From Actinomycetota bacterium (GTDB lineage Bacteria > Actinomycetota > Nitriliruptoria > Nitriliruptorales > Nitriliruptoraceae), in contig JAHWKY010000006.1 in assembly GCA_019347575.1 (NCBI GenBank), positions 1 to 64,000 on the forward strand: 64,000 nt of DNA, read 5' to 3'. The notes under the pieces are model-generated. The model did not search any database and was not told the DNA's origin. It saw nothing but the letters and a program-made list of their open reading frames with translations. Each line of letters starts with the position of its first letter. The stretch's first letter is position 1. Of the stretch, positions 12,247 through 52,216 are shown one piece after another. The position numbers were made by a program, and so were the translations under genes.

Positions 12247-14094
12247 GTGGGAGCGGTGCGCCCCAGTGGGACCTCCGCCGACGCGGTCGCGCTGGCACGC
12301 AAGCGCGCTCGGTTACACCCGCCTGGCGAGCTCGACCCGGTCACCGCCGAGGTCGTGCGCACGTCGATGGAGACGGTCTGCTTCGAGATGGCGACCTACG
12401 TGTCGCGCACGGCGACGACCCCCATCCTGAACCAGAGCAACGAGCGCAACGCCACGATCCTCGATCGCAACGGTCGTCTCGCCGCCCTCAGCGTCGGGAT
12501 CCCGCAGTTCATGCTGACCTCCACCCTGCCGGTGCGGTTCGCGCTGGAGTTCTTCGAGGCGGACGAGTGGCGTGACGGCGACGTGTTCGTCTCCAACGAC
12601 CCCTACCACGGCGGTGGCCACCTCCCCGACTACAACGTCTACGCCCCGGTGGTCATCGACGGCGAGCTGGTGTGCATCGCGTCCATCCAGTGCCACCACG
12701 GCGACACCGGCGGCTCCTCCCCTGGCGGCTACAACGTCAACGCCACCGAGATCTGGGCGGAGGGCGTGCGCTGGCCCGCGGTCAAGGTCGTCGACGAGGG
12801 CGTGGAACGTCGCGACCTGCTGTACGCGATGGCGTCCAACGTCCGCCTCCCCGGGTTCGTGGGGGACATCCGAGCCCAGATCGGCGCGGCCCAGCTCGGG
12901 GCGCGTCGTCTCAAGGGCATCGTCGAGCGTCACGGTCGCGAGACCGTCGAGCGCTCGATGGACTTCGCGATCGAGTACGCCGCGCAGCGCTTCCGCGAGG
13001 CGGTCGCGAGCTGGCCCGACGGGACCTACGCCGCCGACGTGTACGTCGACCACGATCCACTCGGCCATCCCGACATCCATCTGCACTGCGAGGTGACCGT
13101 CGCCGGCGACGAGCTCACGGTCGACTTCAACGGCACCGACACGCGTGACGAGATCCAGGCGTGGTCGACGTTCGGCAACACGCGCGGCTATGTGATCGCT
13201 CAGCTGGCGTCGCTGGTCGACCCGGAGGTGCCCAAGAACGAGGGCTTCTTCGACAACGTCGAGTTGATCGTCCCTGAGGGCTGCGTGCTCAACCCGCGCG
13301 CCCCGAAGCCCGTGTCCGCCGGGTCACACCACCCCGGCACCGAGGTCGGCGAGGTGGTCGCGCTCGCACTCGCGCAGGCGATCCCCGACCGCTCCGCCCC
13401 GCAGATCTACAAGCTGGGCATCCCCATCATCTTCGCCGGGCTGGACAAGGACGGGAACCGCTTCATCGACCACGGCGGCGAGGTGTTCGGGGCGTGGGTC
13501 CAGGCGGTGAAGGGCCAGGACGGCTGGGGCTCGAAGAACGCCGCCTTCGGCAACCTCTTCAAGGCTCCCGCCGAGCTGCACGAGACGTCCACGCCTCACC
13601 TGCTCTGGGGCCGCGACTTCATCACCGACAGCGGCGGGCCCGGGCAGTGGCGGGGCGGGTGCGGCTCGCGCTACATCAAGGAGACGCTCGTCCCGGCCCA
13701 GGTGCACACCTACGTGGTGGGCAAGAAGTACCCGATGCCCGGCATCGCCGGCGGTCGCAACGGCGCCCCGAACCGTCTCACGATCAAGGTCGGGTCGGAA
13801 CAGCCGATCGAGGTCGACTTCACCGCCGAGTGGGTGCCGCACGAGGCCGGTGAGAAGGTGGTGTACGAGTTCGGCGGTGGCGGCGGCTGGGGCGATCCGC
13901 TCGACCGCGAGCCGCAAGCGGTGCTCGACGACGTGCTCGACGAGTACGTCAGCGTCGAGGCGGCCGCGCGCGACTACGGCGTCGTGCTCACCGGCTCGCT
14001 CGAGGAGCTCACGCTCGCGGTCGACGAGCCCGCGACCGAGCGTCTCCGCACCGACCTCCGCGCCTCCCGCTCCGACGCGGAGCCGCGAACTTGA
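12247..14094 (+). CDS. Hydantoinase B/oxoprolinase family protein
   Basis: A 615-aa subunit of the ATP-dependent hydantoinase/oxoprolinase/acetone-carboxylase superfamily. Recognisable parts are LDPVTAEVVRTSMETV near the start, VSNDPYHGGGHLPDY and the C-terminal GGGGWGDPLDREPQAV. The start GTG 12247 has GGGAGG 8 nt upstream; the frame is open 1.1 kb further back but that part is antisense to the propeller gene. The A subunit follows at 14171, an unusual B-then-A order. The stop codon lies inside the left arm of a stem-loop repeat. The pair would cleave a cyclic amide or carboxylate with ATP; substrate unknown. Confidence 0.85.
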   Translation: MGAVRPSGTSADAVALARKRARLHPPGELDPVTAEVVRTSMETVCFEMATYVSRTATTPILNQSNERNATILDRNGRLAALSVGIPQFMLTSTLPVRFALEFFEADEWRDGDVFVSNDPYHGGGHLPDYNVYAPVVIDGELVCIASIQCHHGDTGGSSPGGYNVNATEIWAEGVRWPAVKVVDEGVERRDLLYAMASNVRLPGFVGDIRAQIGAAQLGARRLKGIVERHGRETVERSMDFAIEYAAQRFREAVASWPDGTYAADVYVDHDPLGHPDIHLHCEVTVAGDELTVDFNGTDTRDEIQAWSTFGNTRGYVIAQLASLVDPEVPKNEGFFDNVELIVPEGCVLNPRAPKPVSAGSHHPGTEVGEVVALALAQAIPDRSAPQIYKLGIPIIFAGLDKDGNRFIDHGGEVFGAWVQAVKGQDGWGSKNAAFGNLFKAPAELHETSTPHLLWGRDFITDSGGPGQWRGGCGSRYIKETLVPAQVHTYVVGKKYPMPGIAGGRNGAPNRLTIKVGSEQPIEVDFTAEWVPHEAGEKVVYEFGGGGGWGDPLDREPQAVLDDVLDEYVSVEAAARDYGVVLTGSLEELTLAVDEPATERLRTDLRASRSDAEPRT

Positions 14095-14137
14095 ATACCT
14101 GGGCACACGTCACTGCACCCAACCATTCAAGTTCGCG
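14084..14137. repeat. Stem-loop repeat family A, copy 1
   Basis: Perfect 13-bp arms CGCGAACTTGAAT (14084-14096) and ATTCAAGTTCGCG (14125-14137), with an inner GGG...CCC stem. The TGA stop of the hydantoinase B gene (14092-14094) lies in the left arm. Two more copies are at 35212-35261 and 44653-44702. It may attenuate transcription between the B and A genes. Confidence 0.85.
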
Positions 14138-14170
14138 TGAGGTGGGGGTCGGCTGGGCGCGGGTGCGCTG

Positions 14171-16259: not shown

Positions 16260-16286
16260 AATTCAACCTTCGGCGGGTGGCAGGCG

Positions 16287-16364
16287 TGGTGACGGCGGGA
16301 CGGTCGGGGCGGTGGTGACGGCGGGACGGTCGGGGCGATGGTGACGGCGGGACGGTCGGGGCGG
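16287..16364 (+). repeat. Three tandem copies of a 26-bp repeat
   Basis: Units begin at 16287, 16313 and 16339 and share the core TGGTGACGGCGGGACGGTCG; only single-base changes are seen. The third copy overlaps the ATG (16338) and first codons of the following small gene, so copy number could shift its leader or start. Confidence 0.8.
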
Positions 16365-16856
16365 TGGTGGGCGCGTCGCGTCGTGTCCGCCATGGTCGTC
16401 GCCGCGCAGCTGGTGCTGATCGTGCGCGCGTACCACGCCCCGCAGCGCCCCTTCGGGTTCCAGATGTTCCCCGAGTCGAGCGACTGGCGCGCCGACATCG
16501 TCCGCGTCACCTCCGACGGGGAGCGCCACCCGATCGACGACGGCAGGTGGACCTATCACTGGTCCGAGCTCGTCCGAGGCCACGGGCTCGGCCGCCCCGA
16601 AGTGCGCCACCACGCGTCCGCCGGGCTGGACTCGACGCTCCACCTGTTCCGCGCGGCGCTCGACTGGGTCGCCGCGAACACACCCCGCGACACCGAGACC
16701 CGCTACCTCGAGGCGACCGTGACGACGTGGCACAACGGCGGCGCGCCCCGGACCATCCTCGTGCGATCCGACGAACGGTGCTCAAGTAGCGGAGCGGTAG
16801 CACGACCACGGTGCGTCACGGCACCGACGGACACCACCGCGACCGGGACGCGATGA
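16338..16856 (+). CDS. Small membrane-anchored protein, partner of an HTTM protein
   Basis: A 172-aa protein I do not recognise by name. Residues about 14-30 (VVSAMVVAAQLVLIVRAY) form one membrane segment; the rest is a polar domain with FGFQMFPESSDWRADIVRV. Similar small proteins often precede HTTM (gamma-carboxylase-like) genes, and here the stop overlaps the HTTM start as ATGA. The ATG lies in a 26-bp tandem repeat, so a slightly later start is possible. The last 30 or so residues are encoded by a dispersed hairpin repeat (16778-16803) and beyond, suggesting a replaced C-terminus. Confidence 0.6.
   Translation: MVTAGRSGRWWARRVVSAMVVAAQLVLIVRAYHAPQRPFGFQMFPESSDWRADIVRVTSDGERHPIDDGRWTYHWSELVRGHGLGRPEVRHHASAGLDSTLHLFRAALDWVAANTPRDTETRYLEATVTTWHNGGAPRTILVRSDERCSSSGAVARPRCVTAPTDTTATGTR
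16778..16803 (+). repeat. Hairpin repeat family B, single copy inside a gene
   Basis: One 26-bp copy, with ends GTGCTCAAG and GGTAGCAC, of the element that is tandemly repeated at 21364-21552 and (reversed) at 51220-51380. It lies in the 3' coding part of the 16338-16856 gene and is read in frame. Confidence 0.8.
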
Positions 16857-20562: not shown

Positions 20563-21363
20563 ATGCCCCTGCTCGTCCCTGCCTTCTCGTTCGCCCCGCT
20601 CGCGCCGCTCGCCCACGGCGGGGCCGGGGCGGCGTGGCAAGCCGTCGTGACCGGCCTCGCTCTGGGTGTGGGCGTGGTCTTCGTGCTGGTCGTGATCGGA
20701 CGGGTCGAGCTCGACTCTGCGGGCGACCTCATCACACCTCTAGCGCTCGCGCTGGTCGCCGGATCGCTGGCGACCACGGCACAGACCGTGCTGTCCGACT
20801 GGGTCGGCTACGCGATGATCGCGGGCGGCCTGACGTTGCTCGCGCTGGCGCTCGTCGCCTCGATCGATCGGTTCGGGCTGCGGCGCAACTGGTCCGTCGC
20901 GGTGACCTTCGCGGCCCTGGCCGCGATCCCGACGATGCTGTGGGGGGGCACGCTCAACGCCGAGGTGCACCCACCTGAGGAGCCGCAGAAGGCGCGGTTA
21001 CCGGATCCGGGCGATGCGGTGTTGTCGCTCGCCTCCCCGGAGCCGGGTGGCACGGTTCCCGCTGGCCAGGTCGAGTTCACGTTCACCGTGACGGGCGGCA
21101 GCATCGGGCCGCGCATCGGCAGCCAGCCGATCCCTCCTCCCGACGATCCCCAGGGCTTGGGCCACGTGCGTCTCTTCGTCGACAACCGTCCCGTCACCAC
21201 CTCCGATGAGGATCGCTGCAGCGTCGCTGCGCCGTGCCGCGAGGTGACCTTCACCACGATGCTGACGGCCGGGGCACACCGGGTCACGGCCGAGTTCGTC
21301 GCGTACGACGGGGCGCAGTTCGCCCCGCTGGTCGCGGTGGTCACGACGATCACGGCCGAGTGA
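20563..21363 (+). CDS. Membrane protein with C-terminal extracellular beta domain
   Basis: A 266-aa protein. The first half has about four hydrophobic helices (VVTGLALGVGVVFVLVVIG, LALALVAGSLATTAQTVL and two more). The second half, after PEEPQKARLPDPGD, is an exported Ig-like beta domain with VEFTFTVTGGSIG, GLGHVRLFVDN and LTAGAHRVTAEF, reminiscent of DUF4399-type domains. It is divergent from copCD, which suggests but does not prove a role in metal or envelope homeostasis. No named function is assigned. Confidence 0.65.
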   Translation: MPLLVPAFSFAPLAPLAHGGAGAAWQAVVTGLALGVGVVFVLVVIGRVELDSAGDLITPLALALVAGSLATTAQTVLSDWVGYAMIAGGLTLLALALVASIDRFGLRRNWSVAVTFAALAAIPTMLWGGTLNAEVHPPEEPQKARLPDPGDAVLSLASPEPGGTVPAGQVEFTFTVTGGSIGPRIGSQPIPPPDDPQGLGHVRLFVDNRPVTTSDEDRCSVAAPCREVTFTTMLTAGAHRVTAEFVAYDGAQFAPLVAVVTTITAE

Positions 21364-21552
21364 GTGCTCAAGGGGCCGCAGGCCGGTAGCACGACCGAGT
21401 GTGCTCAAGCAGGCCGCAGGCCGTTAGCACGACCGAGTGTGCTCAAGGAGGCCGGAGGCCGTTAGCACGACCGAGTGTGCTCAAGGAGGCCGCAGGCCGT
21501 TAGCACGACCGAGTGTGCTCAAGGAGGCCGCAGGCCGTTAGCACGACCGAGT
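21364..21552 (+). repeat. Hairpin repeat family B, five-copy tandem array
   Basis: Five units begin at 21364, 21401, 21439, 21477 and 21515 (37 nt, then 38 nt each). Each has GTGCTCAAG, an inner GGCC-GCA-GGCC palindrome and TAGCAC, followed by the constant spacer GACCGAGT. The outer GTGCT/AGCAC arms pair, so each unit can fold. Spacers are identical, which excludes a CRISPR. The array starts directly after the stop of the upstream gene and fills most of the 233 bp to the hydrolase. Confidence 0.9.
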
Positions 21553-21596: not shown

Positions 21597-22517
21597 GTGC
21601 CCGACCGCTGGCAGCACGTCACATCGTTCGATGGCACCCGTGTCGCGTGGCGACTCGATGCGCCAGCCGACAAGATCACGAAGGCGCGCACAGTCCGAGC
21701 CAGCGAGATCGCGGTGGTGCTCTGCAACGGCATCTCGTGTGACCACAGCTACTGGAACCACGTCTGGGGCCCGCTGGCCGAACGCGCCCCGCTGCTGCGC
21801 TGGCACTACCGCGGCCACGGGCGCAGCGACCCGCCCGCCGACCCGGACGCGTACCGAGTCGTCGACGTCGTGCGTGACCTCGAGGTGGTCACCCGGGAGA
21901 GGGGCATCAAGCGCGCGGTGCTCGTCGGGCACAGCTACGGCGTTCAGATCGCGACCGAGACGCCCCGCCACCTCCCCGATCTCGCCGCGGGCATCGTCTG
22001 CGTGGCGGGTACCTACGGCCACCCGATCATGCGGTTCGGGCCGTTCAACCCCGGCGTGAAGGTCTTCGACGTCCTCCACGCCACCACCAAGCTCCCGGGA
22101 CTGCCGGCGCTGACGCGCGCGGCGATGCGCTCACCGATGGCGTACTGGGGGGCTCGCGCCATCCGACTCATCGGCCCACACGCGCCCCGCGACGACATGC
22201 GCCAGTGGTTCGACCACCTCGCTCGCCTCGACATGGGAGTGATCACGCGCATGATGCGGGGCATGCAGGAGCACACCTCGGAGGACCTCCACGAGCACTA
22301 CGACGTCCCGGTCGTGACGATCGCCGGAGGCAGCGACTGGGCGACGCCGACCCGCATCCTGCGTCGCCTCGCGGAGCGCGCCCCGCACGGCCGCATGGTC
22401 GAGGTCGCCGACGGCAGCCACGTGCTGCCCATCGAGCACCCCGACGTCGTCGTGGAGGAGGTCCTCCGCCTCCTCGACGAGGCCCGTTTGACGCGTGGTA
22501 CCACTTCGGTACCATAG
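21597..22517 (+). CDS. Alpha/beta hydrolase
   Basis: A 306-aa hydrolase. The nucleophile elbow VGHSYGVQ places Ser113; the probable His is His275 in ADGSHVLPIEHP. An HYRGHGRSDPPAD segment matches the oxyanion-region signature. GTG 21597 follows CCCGGAG. It lies after the hairpin array; its 3' end contains the promoter of the toxin-antitoxin pair. It might be an esterase, epoxide hydrolase-like or lipase-like enzyme; specificity is not readable. Confidence 0.82.
   Translation: MPDRWQHVTSFDGTRVAWRLDAPADKITKARTVRASEIAVVLCNGISCDHSYWNHVWGPLAERAPLLRWHYRGHGRSDPPADPDAYRVVDVVRDLEVVTRERGIKRAVLVGHSYGVQIATETPRHLPDLAAGIVCVAGTYGHPIMRFGPFNPGVKVFDVLHATTKLPGLPALTRAAMRSPMAYWGARAIRLIGPHAPRDDMRQWFDHLARLDMGVITRMMRGMQEHTSEDLHEHYDVPVVTIAGGSDWATPTRILRRLAERAPHGRMVEVADGSHVLPIEHPDVVVEEVLRLLDEARLTRGTTSVP
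22488..22515 (+). promoter_or_regulatory. Antitoxin promoter (leaderless) with embedded operator
   Basis: TTGACG (22488-22493), a 16-nt spacer and TACCAT (22510-22515) form a good promoter; ATG 22522 begins 6 nt after the -10, predicting a leaderless mRNA. The palindrome TGGTACC-N5-GGTACCA (22496-22514) fills the spacer and -10 and is the likely binding site of the ribbon-helix-helix antitoxin itself. Confidence 0.65.
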
Positions 22518-33993: not shown

Positions 33994-35220
33994 GTGACGG
34001 ATGCCCCGCAGCCGCTCGCCGGCCTACGTGTGCTCGACGTCGGCACGCGCATCAGCGCCCCGTTCTGCGCCGCCATCCTCGGTGAGCAGGGCGCCGAGGT
34101 CATCAAGGTCGAGGATCCGCGGGGCGGGGACTTCATGCGCGGCATCGGTCCGTTCCAGGATGGCTACTCGCTGTGGTGGGCGGTCGAGGGAAGAGGTCGC
34201 AAGAGCGTCACCTGCGACCTGCGCAGCGAGCGCGGTCAGGAGCTGTTCCGTTCGCTGGCGGTGCATGCGGACGTCGTGGTCGAGAACTTCCGCCCCGGCA
34301 CCGTCGAGCGCTGGAACATCGGGCCCGACGACCTGCCCGACCGCATCGTCTACGTGCGCATCTCCGCGTTCGGCCAGGACGGCCCGTACCGCGACCGCCC
34401 CGGCCTCGACCGCGTCGGCATCGCGGTAGGGGGTCTGCTGCACCTCACCGGAGAACCCGACCGACCCCCCGTCCGGCCCGGCATCACGTTGTCGGACTAC
34501 CTCACGGGCACGTTCGCCGCCGAGGCTGCCGTCGCCGCGCTCTACGAACGCGATGCCCGCGGACGCGGACCCGGGCGGGAGGGTGGCAGGGGCGTCGGGC
34601 GCGTGATCGACGCCCCGCTGTACGGCTCCATCCTGCGCGTGCTCGAGTGGACCATCGCCGGCCACGACCACCTCGACATCGTCCGCAGCCGGCACGGCAA
34701 CCGCATCCCGACCTCCGCCCCGATGGACAACTTCCCCTGCGCCGACGAGGTCGTGGTCTGCATCGCCGCGGGCTCGGATGCCAACTTCGCGCGCCTCTGC
34801 ACCGCCATGGAGCGCCCCGAGCTTCCCGAGGATCCGCGCTTCATCACCCTGACCCACCGCGTCGAGCACAGCGACGAGCTGCACGCGATCGTCGGGGCGT
34901 GGTGCGCATCGCTGCCTTCCGAGGAGGTGGAGCAGCGCTGCCTCGCGAGCAACGTCCCCGCCTCGCGCGCGTACACCGCCGCCGACATCGCGACCGACCC
35001 GCACCTGGCCGCGCGCGGCGACGTCGTCACCATCGAGGACCCCGTGGTGGGATCGATCCGCCAGCAGGCGCCCTACCCCCGCTTCGACGGCGTGCCGCCG
35101 CCCGTCCCCCGCGGGGCGCCGCGACTCGGCGAGCACGACGACGAGGTGTGGGGCGGCCTCGTCGGCCTCAGCGACGCCGACCTCGCCGACCTCCGCGCCG
35201 CCCGCATCCTCCGAACTTGA
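33994..35220 (+). CDS. Class III (CaiB/BaiF-type) CoA-transferase
   Basis: A 408-aa enzyme moving CoA between carboxylic acids. The N-terminal LAGLRVLDVGTRISAPFCAAILGEQGAEVIKVEDPRGGD is characteristic; the catalytic Asp lies in the region around LHLTGEPDRPPVRPG. GRKSVTCDLRSERGQELF and VVVENFRPGTVERW are also conserved. It begins at GTG 33994. The stop TGA is in the left arm of stem-loop repeat copy 2. It probably ends the dehydrogenase/hydratase/transferase operon, recycling CoA. Confidence 0.87.
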   Translation: MTDAPQPLAGLRVLDVGTRISAPFCAAILGEQGAEVIKVEDPRGGDFMRGIGPFQDGYSLWWAVEGRGRKSVTCDLRSERGQELFRSLAVHADVVVENFRPGTVERWNIGPDDLPDRIVYVRISAFGQDGPYRDRPGLDRVGIAVGGLLHLTGEPDRPPVRPGITLSDYLTGTFAAEAAVAALYERDARGRGPGREGGRGVGRVIDAPLYGSILRVLEWTIAGHDHLDIVRSRHGNRIPTSAPMDNFPCADEVVVCIAAGSDANFARLCTAMERPELPEDPRFITLTHRVEHSDELHAIVGAWCASLPSEEVEQRCLASNVPASRAYTAADIATDPHLAARGDVVTIEDPVVGSIRQQAPYPRFDGVPPPVPRGAPRLGEHDDEVWGGLVGLSDADLADLRAARILRT

Positions 35221-35261
35221 ATACCTGGGCACATCTGAGCGCTCCCAAGTATTCAAGTTCG
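35212..35261. repeat. Stem-loop repeat family A, copy 2
   Basis: 13-bp arms CGAACTTGAATAC (35212-35224) and GTATTCAAGTTCG (35249-35261). As in copy 1, the left arm provides the stop of the preceding gene, again giving Arg-Thr-stop as the last codons. It lies between convergent genes and could be a two-way terminator. Confidence 0.85.
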
Positions 35262-35295
35262 TGATGCGCGGATGCGCCGTCGCCAAGACAAGGGG

Positions 35296-40278: not shown

Positions 40279-42021
40279 TCAGAGCCACGGCGTGACGTCG
40301 CGGAGGGGGCCGCACTCGAACCCGTCGGGTCCGGTCCGCTGCCACGTCAGGTTCCCGCCCCCCGTGTCCACGACCTGGATGCGGACGATGCAGTTGAACA
40401 CCCACTTGAAGTCCCACTCACCGAACGGCTGGGGCCCGTTCACACGGGTGCTCTGGAACGGCGAGATCGCCCCGAACAGCCCTCCGGCCTGCCAGTCCTG
40501 CATCCGGCGGACGGCGTCCATCACGCACTCGCGCGTCGGGGCGCCCCCGCAGGACTCGATCGCGTCAGCGAACATCCAGCCGCTGGCGTAGCCGACGACG
40601 GCGTACGTGCCGGTCGGTTCGACGTTGGGGTGAGCGGCGGCGAAGTCACGCAGGAACAGCGCCATGTTCGGGTCGTTGGGCTCCTCGAGGGGCACGTGCG
40701 GCAGGAACGTGCGCACCCCGAGCGCGTCCTGACCGAGGTCGTTGATGAACTTGGGGTCGTAACCAGCGTAGGGCTCGTACATCAGCTTGAAGCACTGCGT
40801 GACGCAGCGATCCGGCGGCCACGCGCCCTGGTCCGCGGCGGCCTGCACGAGGTTGATGTTCGACTGGAGGTCGGCGTAGGTGAAGACGCAATCCACGCCG
40901 TCGCTGCGCATCTGCTGCACGAGCAGCCGGTACTGCGGGACCGAGGCCGCGAGCGCCTGCTGGTACAGCTGGGTGTTGTCCTCGCCCAGTGCCATGCCCC
41001 ACGACTGCTCGAGCGTGACCTGGCCAATTTCGGCCTGGTCCTGCGACGCCCCGGTCGGCTCGGCCAGGTACACGATCCCGCCGAACGTGCACTCCTCACC
41101 CTGTGCGGCGAGTTCCTTCGCGAAGCCGACGAACGCCGTCCCACCGCCGAGGACCGGCGACAGGCTGCCGAGCGGGCTGCCGTGCCACGGCGACTGCGAC
41201 CGGTTGTAGCTGTACGCCTGACCGCCGATGTCGGGCAGGAACTCGCCGTCGTCGGACGCGCGCGGGTCGAACGGCCTGCTGCTGCCGTACATGCGGCCGT
41301 CCTGCAGTGAGGTGATGCCGACGAACGCGAACACCTCGCTGACCATGCGGTCGTAGTGGTTCTGGGCGTCGAACGGGTTGGCGTTGTCGTTGGCGACCTC
41401 GAGTTCGATCTGGCGGCCGCACACCCCACCCTCGGCGTTCTTGCGCGCGATGTAGGCCTCGAGGCCCTGCCGCACAGGCCGCAGCTGCGCTGGCAGCTGG
41501 CTGACGTCGCTGATGATCTGGCCGATGACGACCTTCTCGGCGTCGATCCCCGTCGCTTCGTAGCTGGGGTCCGGGGTGCAGCCGGCCGCCGTGCCGGTCG
41601 TCCCTCCGGACGTCCCGCCGCTCGTCCCGCCGCTGGTCGTCCCACCCGTCGTCGCGCCCGTCGAGCCGCCCGAGGTGCCACCCGACGTGCCCCCCGCGGT
41701 GGCTCCGGTCGTCCCTCCCGTGGTACCGGTCGTCGTGGTACCGGTCGTCGACGGTCCACCGGTGGTCGCGGCACCGGGGTCGCCTGGCGAGGTGGTCTCG
41801 GTCGGTGTCTCCTCGGCGGTCGGGGTCGCGGTCGGCGGCGCGGTCGGGCCGTCGGCGAGCGGATCGTCGACGGTGACGGCGGCGGGCGCGGTGCCGACAC
41901 CGACCTCCGCAGCGAGGAACCCCATAGCACTCATGCCCACGCCGAGGAGGAACGCAGTCACGGCGGAGAACAGGGGGTTGCGCTCGATCCAGCCGATCCA
42001 GCCGCGCCGGTTGTTCGCCAT
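40279..42021 (-). CDS. Membrane-anchored substrate-binding protein (LivK-like)
   Basis: A 580-aa protein. One N-terminal membrane helix (AVTAFLLGVGMSAMGFLAAE) anchors it; a long Thr/Gly/Ser/Pro-rich linker (about residues 55-150, many TGG and SGG repeats) leads to a periplasmic-binding-protein type I domain with VVIGQIISDVSQLPAQLRP, EVANDNANPFDAQNHYDRM and DAVRRMQDWQAGG. ATG 42021 is preferred; the frame is open to 42087, across the operator. Long linker and helix suggest it reaches through a thick wall instead of being a lipoprotein. Confidence 0.82.
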   Translation of the reverse strand: MANNRRGWIGWIERNPLFSAVTAFLLGVGMSAMGFLAAEVGVGTAPAAVTVDDPLADGPTAPPTATPTAEETPTETTSPGDPGAATTGGPSTTGTTTTGTTGGTTGATAGGTSGGTSGGSTGATTGGTTSGGTSGGTSGGTTGTAAGCTPDPSYEATGIDAEKVVIGQIISDVSQLPAQLRPVRQGLEAYIARKNAEGGVCGRQIELEVANDNANPFDAQNHYDRMVSEVFAFVGITSLQDGRMYGSSRPFDPRASDDGEFLPDIGGQAYSYNRSQSPWHGSPLGSLSPVLGGGTAFVGFAKELAAQGEECTFGGIVYLAEPTGASQDQAEIGQVTLEQSWGMALGEDNTQLYQQALAASVPQYRLLVQQMRSDGVDCVFTYADLQSNINLVQAAADQGAWPPDRCVTQCFKLMYEPYAGYDPKFINDLGQDALGVRTFLPHVPLEEPNDPNMALFLRDFAAAHPNVEPTGTYAVVGYASGWMFADAIESCGGAPTRECVMDAVRRMQDWQAGGLFGAISPFQSTRVNGPQPFGEWDFKWVFNCIVRIQVVDTGGGNLTWQRTGPDGFECGPLRDVTPWL

Positions 42022-44652: not shown

Positions 44653-44702
44653 CGAACTTGAATACTCGGGTGCACTCCGATGCCCCCAACCATTCAAGTT
44701 CG
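44653..44702. repeat. Stem-loop repeat family A, copy 3
   Basis: 11-bp arms CGAACTTGAAT (44653-44663) and ATTCAAGTTCG (44692-44702). It lies between convergent genes, 50 nt past the permease stop, and unlike the other copies does not contain a stop codon. Confidence 0.85.
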
Positions 44703-44716
44703 GGTGGAGCCGCGCG

Positions 44717-50965: not shown

Positions 50966-51184
50966 CTACTTCTTCATCGACTCGGCCTTCTCGGCGCCCT
51001 GGTGCCCGGCGGCCTCCTGGCGCTTCTCGGCGGCCTTCTCCTCGTAGCGCTCGGCCTCCTCCTCGCTCTGGGCCTTCTTCTGCTGCTGTTCACCCTCGCG
51101 TTCGAGGTTCTCGTCGCCGACCGCCTCCCCCGCGATCTCCTTCGCCATGCCCTTGACCTTCTCGACGGTGTTGTCGGTGCCCAC
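50966..51184 (-). CDS. CsbD-like stress protein
   Basis: A 72-aa, highly charged, Glu/Lys-rich protein. The start MGTDNTVEKVKGMAKEIAGEAVGD matches the CsbD family (sigma-B-type general stress proteins in Bacillus); the rest is helical, with EEEAERYEEKAAEKRQE. GTG 51184 has AGGAGCG upstream. Actinobacterial homologues are usually induced by stress; its function is unknown. The reversed hairpin array lies just upstream. Confidence 0.8.
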   Translation of the reverse strand: MGTDNTVEKVKGMAKEIAGEAVGDENLEREGEQQQKKAQSEEEAERYEEKAAEKRQEAAGHQGAEKAESMKK

Positions 51185-51219: not shown

Positions 51220-51380
51220 GTGCTACCGCTTCGCTACTTGAGCACTCGGGTCGTGCTACCGCTTCGCTACTTGAGCACTCGGGTTGTGCTACCGCTTCGC
51301 TACTTGAGCACTCGGGTTGTGCTACCGCTTCGCTACTTGAGCACTCGGGTTGTGCTACCGCTTCGCTACTTGAGCACTCA
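51220..51380 (-). repeat. Hairpin repeat family B, five-copy array in reverse orientation
   Basis: Units start at 51220, 51253, 51286, 51319 and 51352 with a 33-nt period. Each 26-nt element (GTGCTACCG...CTTGAGCAC as read on plus) is the reverse complement of the single copy at 16778 with one change, and related to the 21364 array. The 7-nt spacers TCGGGTT/TCGGGTC are constant, so it is not a CRISPR. No gene lies in the 51185-51490 gap. Confidence 0.9.
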
Positions 51381-51490: not shown

Positions 51491-52216
51491 TCAGGGCAGG
51501 CGCCAGTCCACCGGTTCCGCGGCCTGCTGCTCCAGCAGGCGGTTGGCGCGACTGAAGGGCCGAGAGCCGAAGAACCCGTTGCGGGCGGACAGCGGGCTGG
51601 GGTGGGTGCTCTCCACGGCCGGGACGTCGCGCAACCAGCGGCGACAGTCGCGCGCGTCGCGGCCCCACAGGATCGCGGCCAGCGGGGCGTCCCGTTCCGC
51701 CAGAGCTCGGATGGCCTGCTCGGTCACGTCCTCCCACCCGATCCCGCGGTGGGAACCGGGGGCGCCGGGACGGACCGTGAGGACGCGGTTGAGCAGCAGC
51801 ACACCCTGCCCGGTCCAGGGAGTGAGGTCGCCGCACTCCGGGTCGGGGTGGCCGAGGTCGTCTCGGTACTCCGTGAAGATGTTCTGCAGACTCTTCGGCA
51901 ACGGCCGGACGTCGGAGGCGACGCTGAAGCACAGGCCGATGGGATGGCCAGGTGTGGGGTAGGGGTCCTGCCCGACGATCAGCACGCGCACCTCGTCGAA
52001 GGGCTGCTGGAACGCGGCGAGGATGCGATCGCCCGCTGGGAGGAAGCGTCGGCCGGCAGCCTGCTCCTCGCGCAGGAAGTCACCGAGTTCGGCGAGCTTG
52101 GCGGCCACGGGTTCCAGCGCCCGGGCCCACCCCGGCTCGACCGCGGCCGCGAGCCTCGCACGCGCCTCCTCCTCGCGCTCGTCGATCTGCTGTCCGAGTC
52201 TCAGCTGCCCGTCCAC
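51491..52216 (-). CDS. ung: Uracil-DNA glycosylase, family 1
   Basis: A 241-aa enzyme that removes uracil from DNA. Active-site motifs are complete: [17 protein letters not shown] (catalytic Asp and Tyr), [17 protein letters not shown] and the C-terminal loop [21 protein letters not shown] (His and DNA-minor-groove Leu region). GTG 52216 has GGGAGG 5 nt upstream. Length is about 15 aa over the usual 225, from an N-terminal helix. Divergent from an SDR, with a palindrome between them. Confidence 0.93.

Follow-up and report, generated by a model that had tools for sequence, protein, structure and literature searches.

E, a dispersed hairpin repeat with covarying arms shared by an actinobacterial genome, alphaproteobacterial rRNA operons and phages

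MIRU-type repeats of mycobacteria lie in tandem between actinobacterial genes and overlap stop codons; they are longer than the element described here and are not known to be defined by a covarying hairpin. Among palindromic repeats, the GTAG REPs of gammaproteobacteria go together with RAYT transposases, which belong to the Y1 tyrosine transposases (PMC2817692, PMC3116915, PMC3733652). The CGTC REPs are alphaproteobacterial, occur mostly as head-head dimers and have no dedicated transposase known (PMC3733652). The intervening sequences of alphaproteobacterial 23S rRNA are processed by RNase III and RNase J, according to references given in PMC6238624, and for Rhodobacter both the processing of rRNA by RNase III and RNase J and cleavage by RNase E near A/U have been described (PMC6238624).

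Here, we describe a hairpin family, called E, in a stretch of 64,000 nt (the window; positions 1 to 64,000 of contig JAHWKY010000006.1) from an Actinomycetota genome of the class Nitriliruptoria. GTAG and CGTC REPs are nearest to E in behaviour (PMC2817692, PMC3733652), but E fails their defining marks. Like GTAG REPs, E copies are intergenic palindromes of 20-40 nt that are numerous, clustered and patchily distributed, with genome-specific stems showing compensatory changes. Unlike GTAG REPs, E has an internal loop (CUCAAG/A.G/U), an internal GTAG and head-to-tail arrays, and searches for a Y1 transposase found none in its genome and hardly any in the class: PF01797 (Y1) has no match in the draft, which is 98.8% complete and so could miss one in the small remainder, and one partial match, at a locus without E, in 66 class genomes. 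GTAG lies inside E in 158 of the 168 copies of this genome and within 6 nt outside it in two of the 168, and its A and G pair with C4-T5 of E. With CGTC REPs, E shares the alphaproteobacterial distribution, but it has neither a terminal CGTC tag nor an uninterrupted stem of 8-9 bp, and its arrays here are head-to-tail; CGTC occurs within 6 nt of E in 4/168 copies of this genome and in 0/113 alphaproteobacterial copies. Head-to-head E pairs were found only in Brevundimonas, and no BIME-like alternation was found in this genome. E resembles the 23S intervening sequences in that, in Rhodobacterales, it lies inside 23S genes and ahead of the ends of mature rRNAs, but it measures only 26-31 nt, possesses its own conserved loop and is found in phages and in the spacers of mRNAs as well. 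What it has in common with MIRU-type repeats is the tandem arrangement between actinobacterial genes and the overlap with stops.

Arrays in the window and copies in the genome

The consensus of E is NNNCT-CAAG-YA-(2-5 bp stem, mostly GNA loop)-G-RT-AG-N'N'N', about 26-31 nt in length. In the window, the pattern GTGCTCAAG-N6-20-TAGCAC matches 11 times (Table 1), as against 0 matches in 100 dinucleotide shuffles. The original prediction had placed a five-copy tandem hairpin array with constant spacers at 21364-21552, between two genes, and this is borne out, the genes being predicted ones: the hairpins stop at 21544, the end at 21552 counting the last 8-nt spacer, and the same GACCGAGT follows each of the five units. 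The unit of 38 nt holds as the period, apart from the first unit, which is one base shorter and has a period of 37, and the GCA loop is replaced by GGA in the third unit. Array 1 hairpins have GTGCT/AGCAC arms around a GGCC-GNA-GGCC inner palindrome. A related array of five copies in reverse orientation, predicted near 51220-51380, was found at 51220-51377 on the minus strand between predicted genes and belongs to the same family; its five hairpins are identical, with a period of 33 and RACCCGA spacers. An eleventh copy, standing singly, had been overlooked in the earlier inventory, which listed both arrays; an HTTM-domain gene probably starts about 50 nt downstream of it. Both arrays consist of copies of a single dispersed hairpin repeat, E.

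Table 1. E hairpins of the window and the genes next to the two arrays
Feature	Position	Strand	Description
Single E hairpin	16778..16803	+	26 nt, GC-GGA-GC inner stem-loop
Gene upstream of array 1	20563..21363	+	without Pfam match; TGA stop abuts hairpin 1, array 1 starting at the first base after it
Array 1 unit 1	21364..21392	+	29-nt hairpin, GGCC-GCA-GGCC, then spacer GACCGAGT
Array 1 unit 2	21401..21430	+	30-nt hairpin, then spacer GACCGAGT
Array 1 unit 3	21439..21468	+	30-nt hairpin, GGA loop in place of GCA, then GACCGAGT
Array 1 unit 4	21477..21506	+	30-nt hairpin, then spacer GACCGAGT
Array 1 unit 5	21515..21544	+	30-nt hairpin, then GACCGAGT, then unique sequence
Gene downstream of array 1	21597..22517	+	alpha/beta hydrolase (PF00561)
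Gene downstream of array 2	50966..51184	-	CsbD-like; weak PF05532 match, under curated cut-off
Array 2 unit 5	51220..51245	-	26-nt hairpin GTGCTCAAGTAGCGAAGCGGTAGCAC
Array 2 unit 4	51253..51278	-	26-nt hairpin GTGCTCAAGTAGCGAAGCGGTAGCAC
Array 2 unit 3	51286..51311	-	26-nt hairpin GTGCTCAAGTAGCGAAGCGGTAGCAC
Array 2 unit 2	51319..51344	-	26-nt hairpin GTGCTCAAGTAGCGAAGCGGTAGCAC
Array 2 unit 1 (first in sense direction)	51352..51377	-	GTGCTCAAGTAGCGAAGCGGTAGCAC
Gene upstream of array 2	51491..52216	-	uracil-DNA glycosylase (PF03167)

The window holds other repeats as well. A 26-nt tandem array (16286-16369; 3.2 copies, 96% match) lies just upstream of the single E hairpin. A second family, with the motif CGAACTTGAATAC..GG...CCCAA..ATTCAAGTTCG, is a 54-nt imperfect inverted repeat in three copies about 80% identical (14086-14139, 35212-35265 and 44653-44706), and overlapping 12/24/39-nt tandem repeats at 41581-41777 are apparently within a predicted coding region.

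Counted through the whole 4.89 Mb draft genome, GTGCTCAAG-N6-20-TAGCAC has 162 exact matches, mostly intergenic (99 forward and 63 reverse), and the reversed-pattern control has 0. A census of loci, which covers about 560 kb of genome stretches, gave 163 copies at 77 loci (29 singles, 22 doubles, 17 triples, 6 quadruples and 3 quintuples) with a regular expression that skips a few unit types, array 1 being scored as four of its five units. Inner stems are GC, GCC, GCCC or GGCC, each with a matching 3′ half, and the triloop is GNA in about 89% of the copies of this genome. E is not an assembly artefact of this one strain, a possibility considered with the original prediction, because the same hairpin is present in many other assemblies, some of them complete: the Methyloligella sp. 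GL2 chromosome and Rhodovulum and Cereibacter plasmids.

Where is E placed relative to genes? In gaps between genes of the same strand, it is sense in 48 and antisense in 10 (p=4.5e-7), with gene borders that are approximate, as they were predicted by a home-made codon model. It often begins right at the stop codon of the gene before it: in nine of the 37 scorable sense gaps it lies 0-3 nt past the stop, whereas uniform placement expects 2.45. In only one of these gaps does its end come to within 3 nt of the following start. In four further genes, the TAG stop is inside E, and the proteins end in ...AQVAKR or AQAAKR, encoded by E. Copies just past stops, together with stops inside E, look as if E had inserted at the ends of genes. 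E is found, too, in gaps of the S10-spc-alpha ribosomal protein operon of this genome. A scan of 99 E-flanking proteins found no common family beyond the usual enzyme folds and no regulon-like set; a regulon read from the flanking genes was rejected, there being no enrichment among these proteins. At one locus (L085, 4053-4188), a four-copy array with a 36-nt period is read in frame, which gives a repeated E-encoded protein tail.

How did the arrays grow? The spacers, 5-12 nt long, are mostly constant inside one array and different among arrays. Their 3′ ends match the upstream flank of their own array over a mean of 2.9 nt, compared with 0.6 nt for spacers taken from different arrays; at the 5′ end, the match to the downstream flank of the same array has a mean of 3.5 nt, compared with 0.9 nt in controls. 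Spacers are thus patched from local flanks, indicating that the arrays expanded in place through tandem duplication. The duplicated unit would consist of a few bases, the hairpin and a few bases more, and its duplication would have built the arrays of 2-5 copies. Since the end points of duplication are never more than a few bases away from the foot of the hairpin, it is probably the hairpin itself that sets them.

Covariation of the arms

E has an outer stem of 5 bp broken by the internal loop, which is invariant, and a short inner stem closed mostly by GNA loops. The outer arms covary: 16 fully paired arm types occur among 439 sites. Earlier structure counts had used rows pre-selected for pairing, so the covariation claim is carried by arms-free counts, in which sites were taken by the core CTCAAGYA...GRTAG alone and the three variable arm positions were scored. 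The cleanest test is the viral set, because neither the search nor the count required pairing: 85 of its 101 sites are fully paired, as against a shuffled mean of 18.5 and a maximum of 31. Among class sites, at loci fetched with the structure model, 30 of 31 are fully paired (5.4 when shuffled), and among alphaproteobacterial sites, many of which came from a GTG-armed search, 137 of 149 (76.9 when shuffled). In this genome, where one arm type is dominant, the count is 145 of 151 and shuffles already reach 129. Compensatory changes in the arms of E exceed chance.

Mismatches in the arms, read on the given strand, are G.T in 16 cases and A.C in 5, which suggests that the strand as written is probably the folding one. 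A single hairpin is weakly stable (-5.7 kcal/mol for the 26-mer RNA, z -0.84), and for this reason the invariant CUCAAG, A.G and U are likelier to be read by a protein than to be needed for folding. Selection on single-stranded DNA by a mobiliser would explain the covariation too, and covariation alone cannot separate the RNA level from the single-stranded DNA level.

Searches of Rfam 15 with covariance models gave no match to array 1, even at E-values up to 10, none over array 2, three weak matches lying beside that array only, and none over E in alphaproteobacterial loci. The core sequence of E is not printed in the open-access literature, to which the search was confined, and E could have been described earlier in a subscription journal, for example in drawings of Rhodobacter intervening sequences.

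E in Nitriliruptoria, Alphaproteobacteria and phages

A covariance model derived from copies of this genome and of alphaproteobacteria, with training rows picked for pairing, served to scan the class Nitriliruptoria. By this model, E is present in 20 of 66 class genomes, and its copy numbers, which are lower bounds for the best candidates scored, are at least 128 here and at least 93, 60, 59 and 55 in the richest of the others. Among same-family relatives, the model finds E in one of 34, as one copy only, and a broader sampling of the phylum gave matches in 22 of 397 genomes. The arm type tends to be genome-specific: GTGCT here and GCGCT, GTCCT, GGTCT, GGCCT or GCCCT elsewhere. The rplW-rplB gap holds four E copies in this genome, whereas it is 12-48 nt long without E in seven same-family genomes among those whose gap could be read out of 20 tried; these relatives are of other genera, so the comparison provides no base-level empty site. 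The patchy distribution in the class, the arms proper to each genome and the E-free rplW-rplB gaps of relatives suggest a recent spread in the lineage. In behaviour, these elements are REP-like: they are intergenic, of high copy number and patchy between relatives.

When about 85,000 species genomes were scanned with a GTG-armed pattern, 107 stretches were returned, nearly all of them from Alphaproteobacteria, where E is common; the 40 genomes tested have 0-13 pattern matches apiece. In Rhodobacterales, E recurs at fixed distances, 11-13 nt before tRNA-fMet, with GTGCT, GGCCT, GGTCT or GACCT arms, about 60 nt before the 16S 27F site and about 55 nt before the 23S 5′ anchor; it lies also inside 23S, about 1.2-1.3 kb from that anchor. 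Antisense copies are found near tRNA-Ala and tRNA-Leu in alphaproteobacteria, and many alphaproteobacterial copies are followed by A-rich sequence. A plasmid search found E mainly in rRNA operons on alphaproteobacterial replicons.

E also occurs between a TPP riboswitch and a thiC-like gene in Asticcacaulis (three tandem copies; locus L102, ~1488-1697), between a glycine riboswitch and a gcvT-like gene (L124, 2802-3014) and between an Rfam YrlA (Y RNA-like) match and an rtcB-like gene in Erythrobacter ani (L103, 1420-1908), where thiC, gcvT and rtcB are named by sequence reading rather than by family search. The E-rtcB junction is seen again in two further genomes (L108 and L196). Brevundimonas (L099, L129, L135, L147, L177, L183 and others) has a conserved head-to-head E pair between divergent genes, which read as ffh-like and saccharopine-dehydrogenase-like; the arms differ on each side of the pair, with compensatory changes.

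A scan of viral contigs, with the arms left free, gave 115 stretches, some of which may be prophages. Several of the viral copies are in bona fide phage modules, among terminase, capsid/protease or tail genes, and E was found before a phage capsid gene. GenBank phage records contain two weak E matches only, and none of these records matches the region around one phage E copy.

Possible roles of E

The reading that we favour, with moderate confidence, is that E, besides being a REP-like repeat, forms in transcribed spacers an RNA hairpin recognised by a protein. Copies of E would have spread through the genome by copying, landing in spacers and gene 3′ ends, and in transcripts E would fold as a single-stranded hairpin, with a conserved protein reading its invariant loop. 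Its likeliest role would be to mark untranslated spacers within long transcripts, either for processing by an endonuclease or for protection, as is suggested by its position shortly before 16S, 23S and tRNA-fMet in Rhodobacterales. Recognition at the RNA level is preferred because of the sense bias and the conserved places in pre-rRNA; against a strictly sense RNA signal stand the ten antisense gaps of this genome and the antisense copies near alphaproteobacterial tRNA-Ala and tRNA-Leu. The weak stability of single hairpins and the lack of a shared function among the flanking genes also count against the favoured reading. Structural RNA, one of the explanations originally offered for the arrays, is in this way supported indirectly, by covariation, sense orientation and rRNA-operon positions in other bacteria. 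More tentatively, E may be the hairpin by which a ribonuclease or RNA-binding protein of wide occurrence recognises rRNA, tRNA, riboswitch-leader and phage late transcripts in Alphaproteobacteria, or else an antitermination signal in these transcripts; it is a hairpin which in some Nitriliruptoria has been multiplied to more than 100 copies, a general RNA-processing signal becoming a dispersed repeat.

Could E instead be purely selfish, a REP-like single-stranded DNA hairpin moved by a non-Y1 enzyme with no benefit to the host, its covariation reflecting the needs of the mobiliser? This would agree with its patchy occurrence at high copy number (20 of 66 class genomes, and a single copy in one of 34 same-family relatives), with the dominance of a single arm type in each genome, with GNA loops in most copies here, with insertions that supply stop codons and with flanking genes that share no function. 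However, the same positions before 16S, 23S and tRNA-fMet are kept across several Rhodobacterales genera with compensatory arm changes, which suggests retention for function, and Y1 searches of this genome and of 66 class genomes revealed no mobiliser, so that a purely selfish E seems somewhat unlikely. The particular mobiliser suggested in the original prediction, the RAYT of GTAG REPs, is barely credible for this genome: E is small, palindromic, intergenic and of high copy number and contains GTAG, but this genome has no PF01797 match, the one partial match in the class is at a locus without E, the GTAG is internal and partly paired, and the units of an array follow one another head-to-tail rather than inverted. 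An anti-polarity or antitermination RNA acting in cis, by which E in nascent untranslated RNA shields polymerase from Rho-dependent termination, would account for rRNA operons, ribosomal protein operons, riboswitch leaders and phage late genes together, and it fits both the sense bias and the location of E in untranslated spacers of long transcripts (ribosomal protein gaps, rRNA operons, TPP-thiC, glycine riboswitch-gcvT and pre-capsid); it is nevertheless an unlikely explanation in view of the antisense copies and of the absence of E from most relatives that have the same operons. A likeness to the RfaH ops element (GCGGTAGC) was dropped, as position 20 of E varies.

Protein-binding arrays, also among the original proposals, retain a small chance where double-stranded DNA is concerned. 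The fixed spacing of 5-12 nt and the partial palindromy would suit a nucleoid protein, a transcription factor or replication iterons, but such an array leaves the covariation unexplained: compensation in 16 arm types around an invariant asymmetric loop is unexpected for duplex recognition, and with E located after stop codons, 29 of the 77 loci holding a single copy and flanking genes that are not regulon-like, we consider it very unlikely. Almost no credence can be given to E being an intrinsic terminator, or a repeat that is processed into small RNAs or a type III antitoxin, of which tandem hairpins downstream of genes are reminiscent. No T-run follows E in this genome, the downstream sequence being R-A-C-C-like with T at most 1% at +1 and +2, and E is found also upstream of genes and within operons; neither a toxin gene nor any other family recurs among the 99 flanking proteins, as a type III antitoxin would have it, and a small-RNA or antitoxin precursor finds no match in Rfam.

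E occurs in a sequence of Cereibacter (Rhodobacter) sphaeroides, which has good genetics and published RNase E cleavage maps, and its role is therefore directly testable. If E is indeed a REP-like repeat recognised by a protein as RNA, one small hairpin with an invariant loop would be common to Rhodobacter-type rRNA operons, their phages and actinobacterial operons, and it would be an RNA element absent from the RNA family library searched (Rfam). REP-like as it is, E would moreover lack the transposase by which REPs are commonly explained, and it would illustrate the way in which repeats of this kind multiply locally, with their own flanks being copied along.
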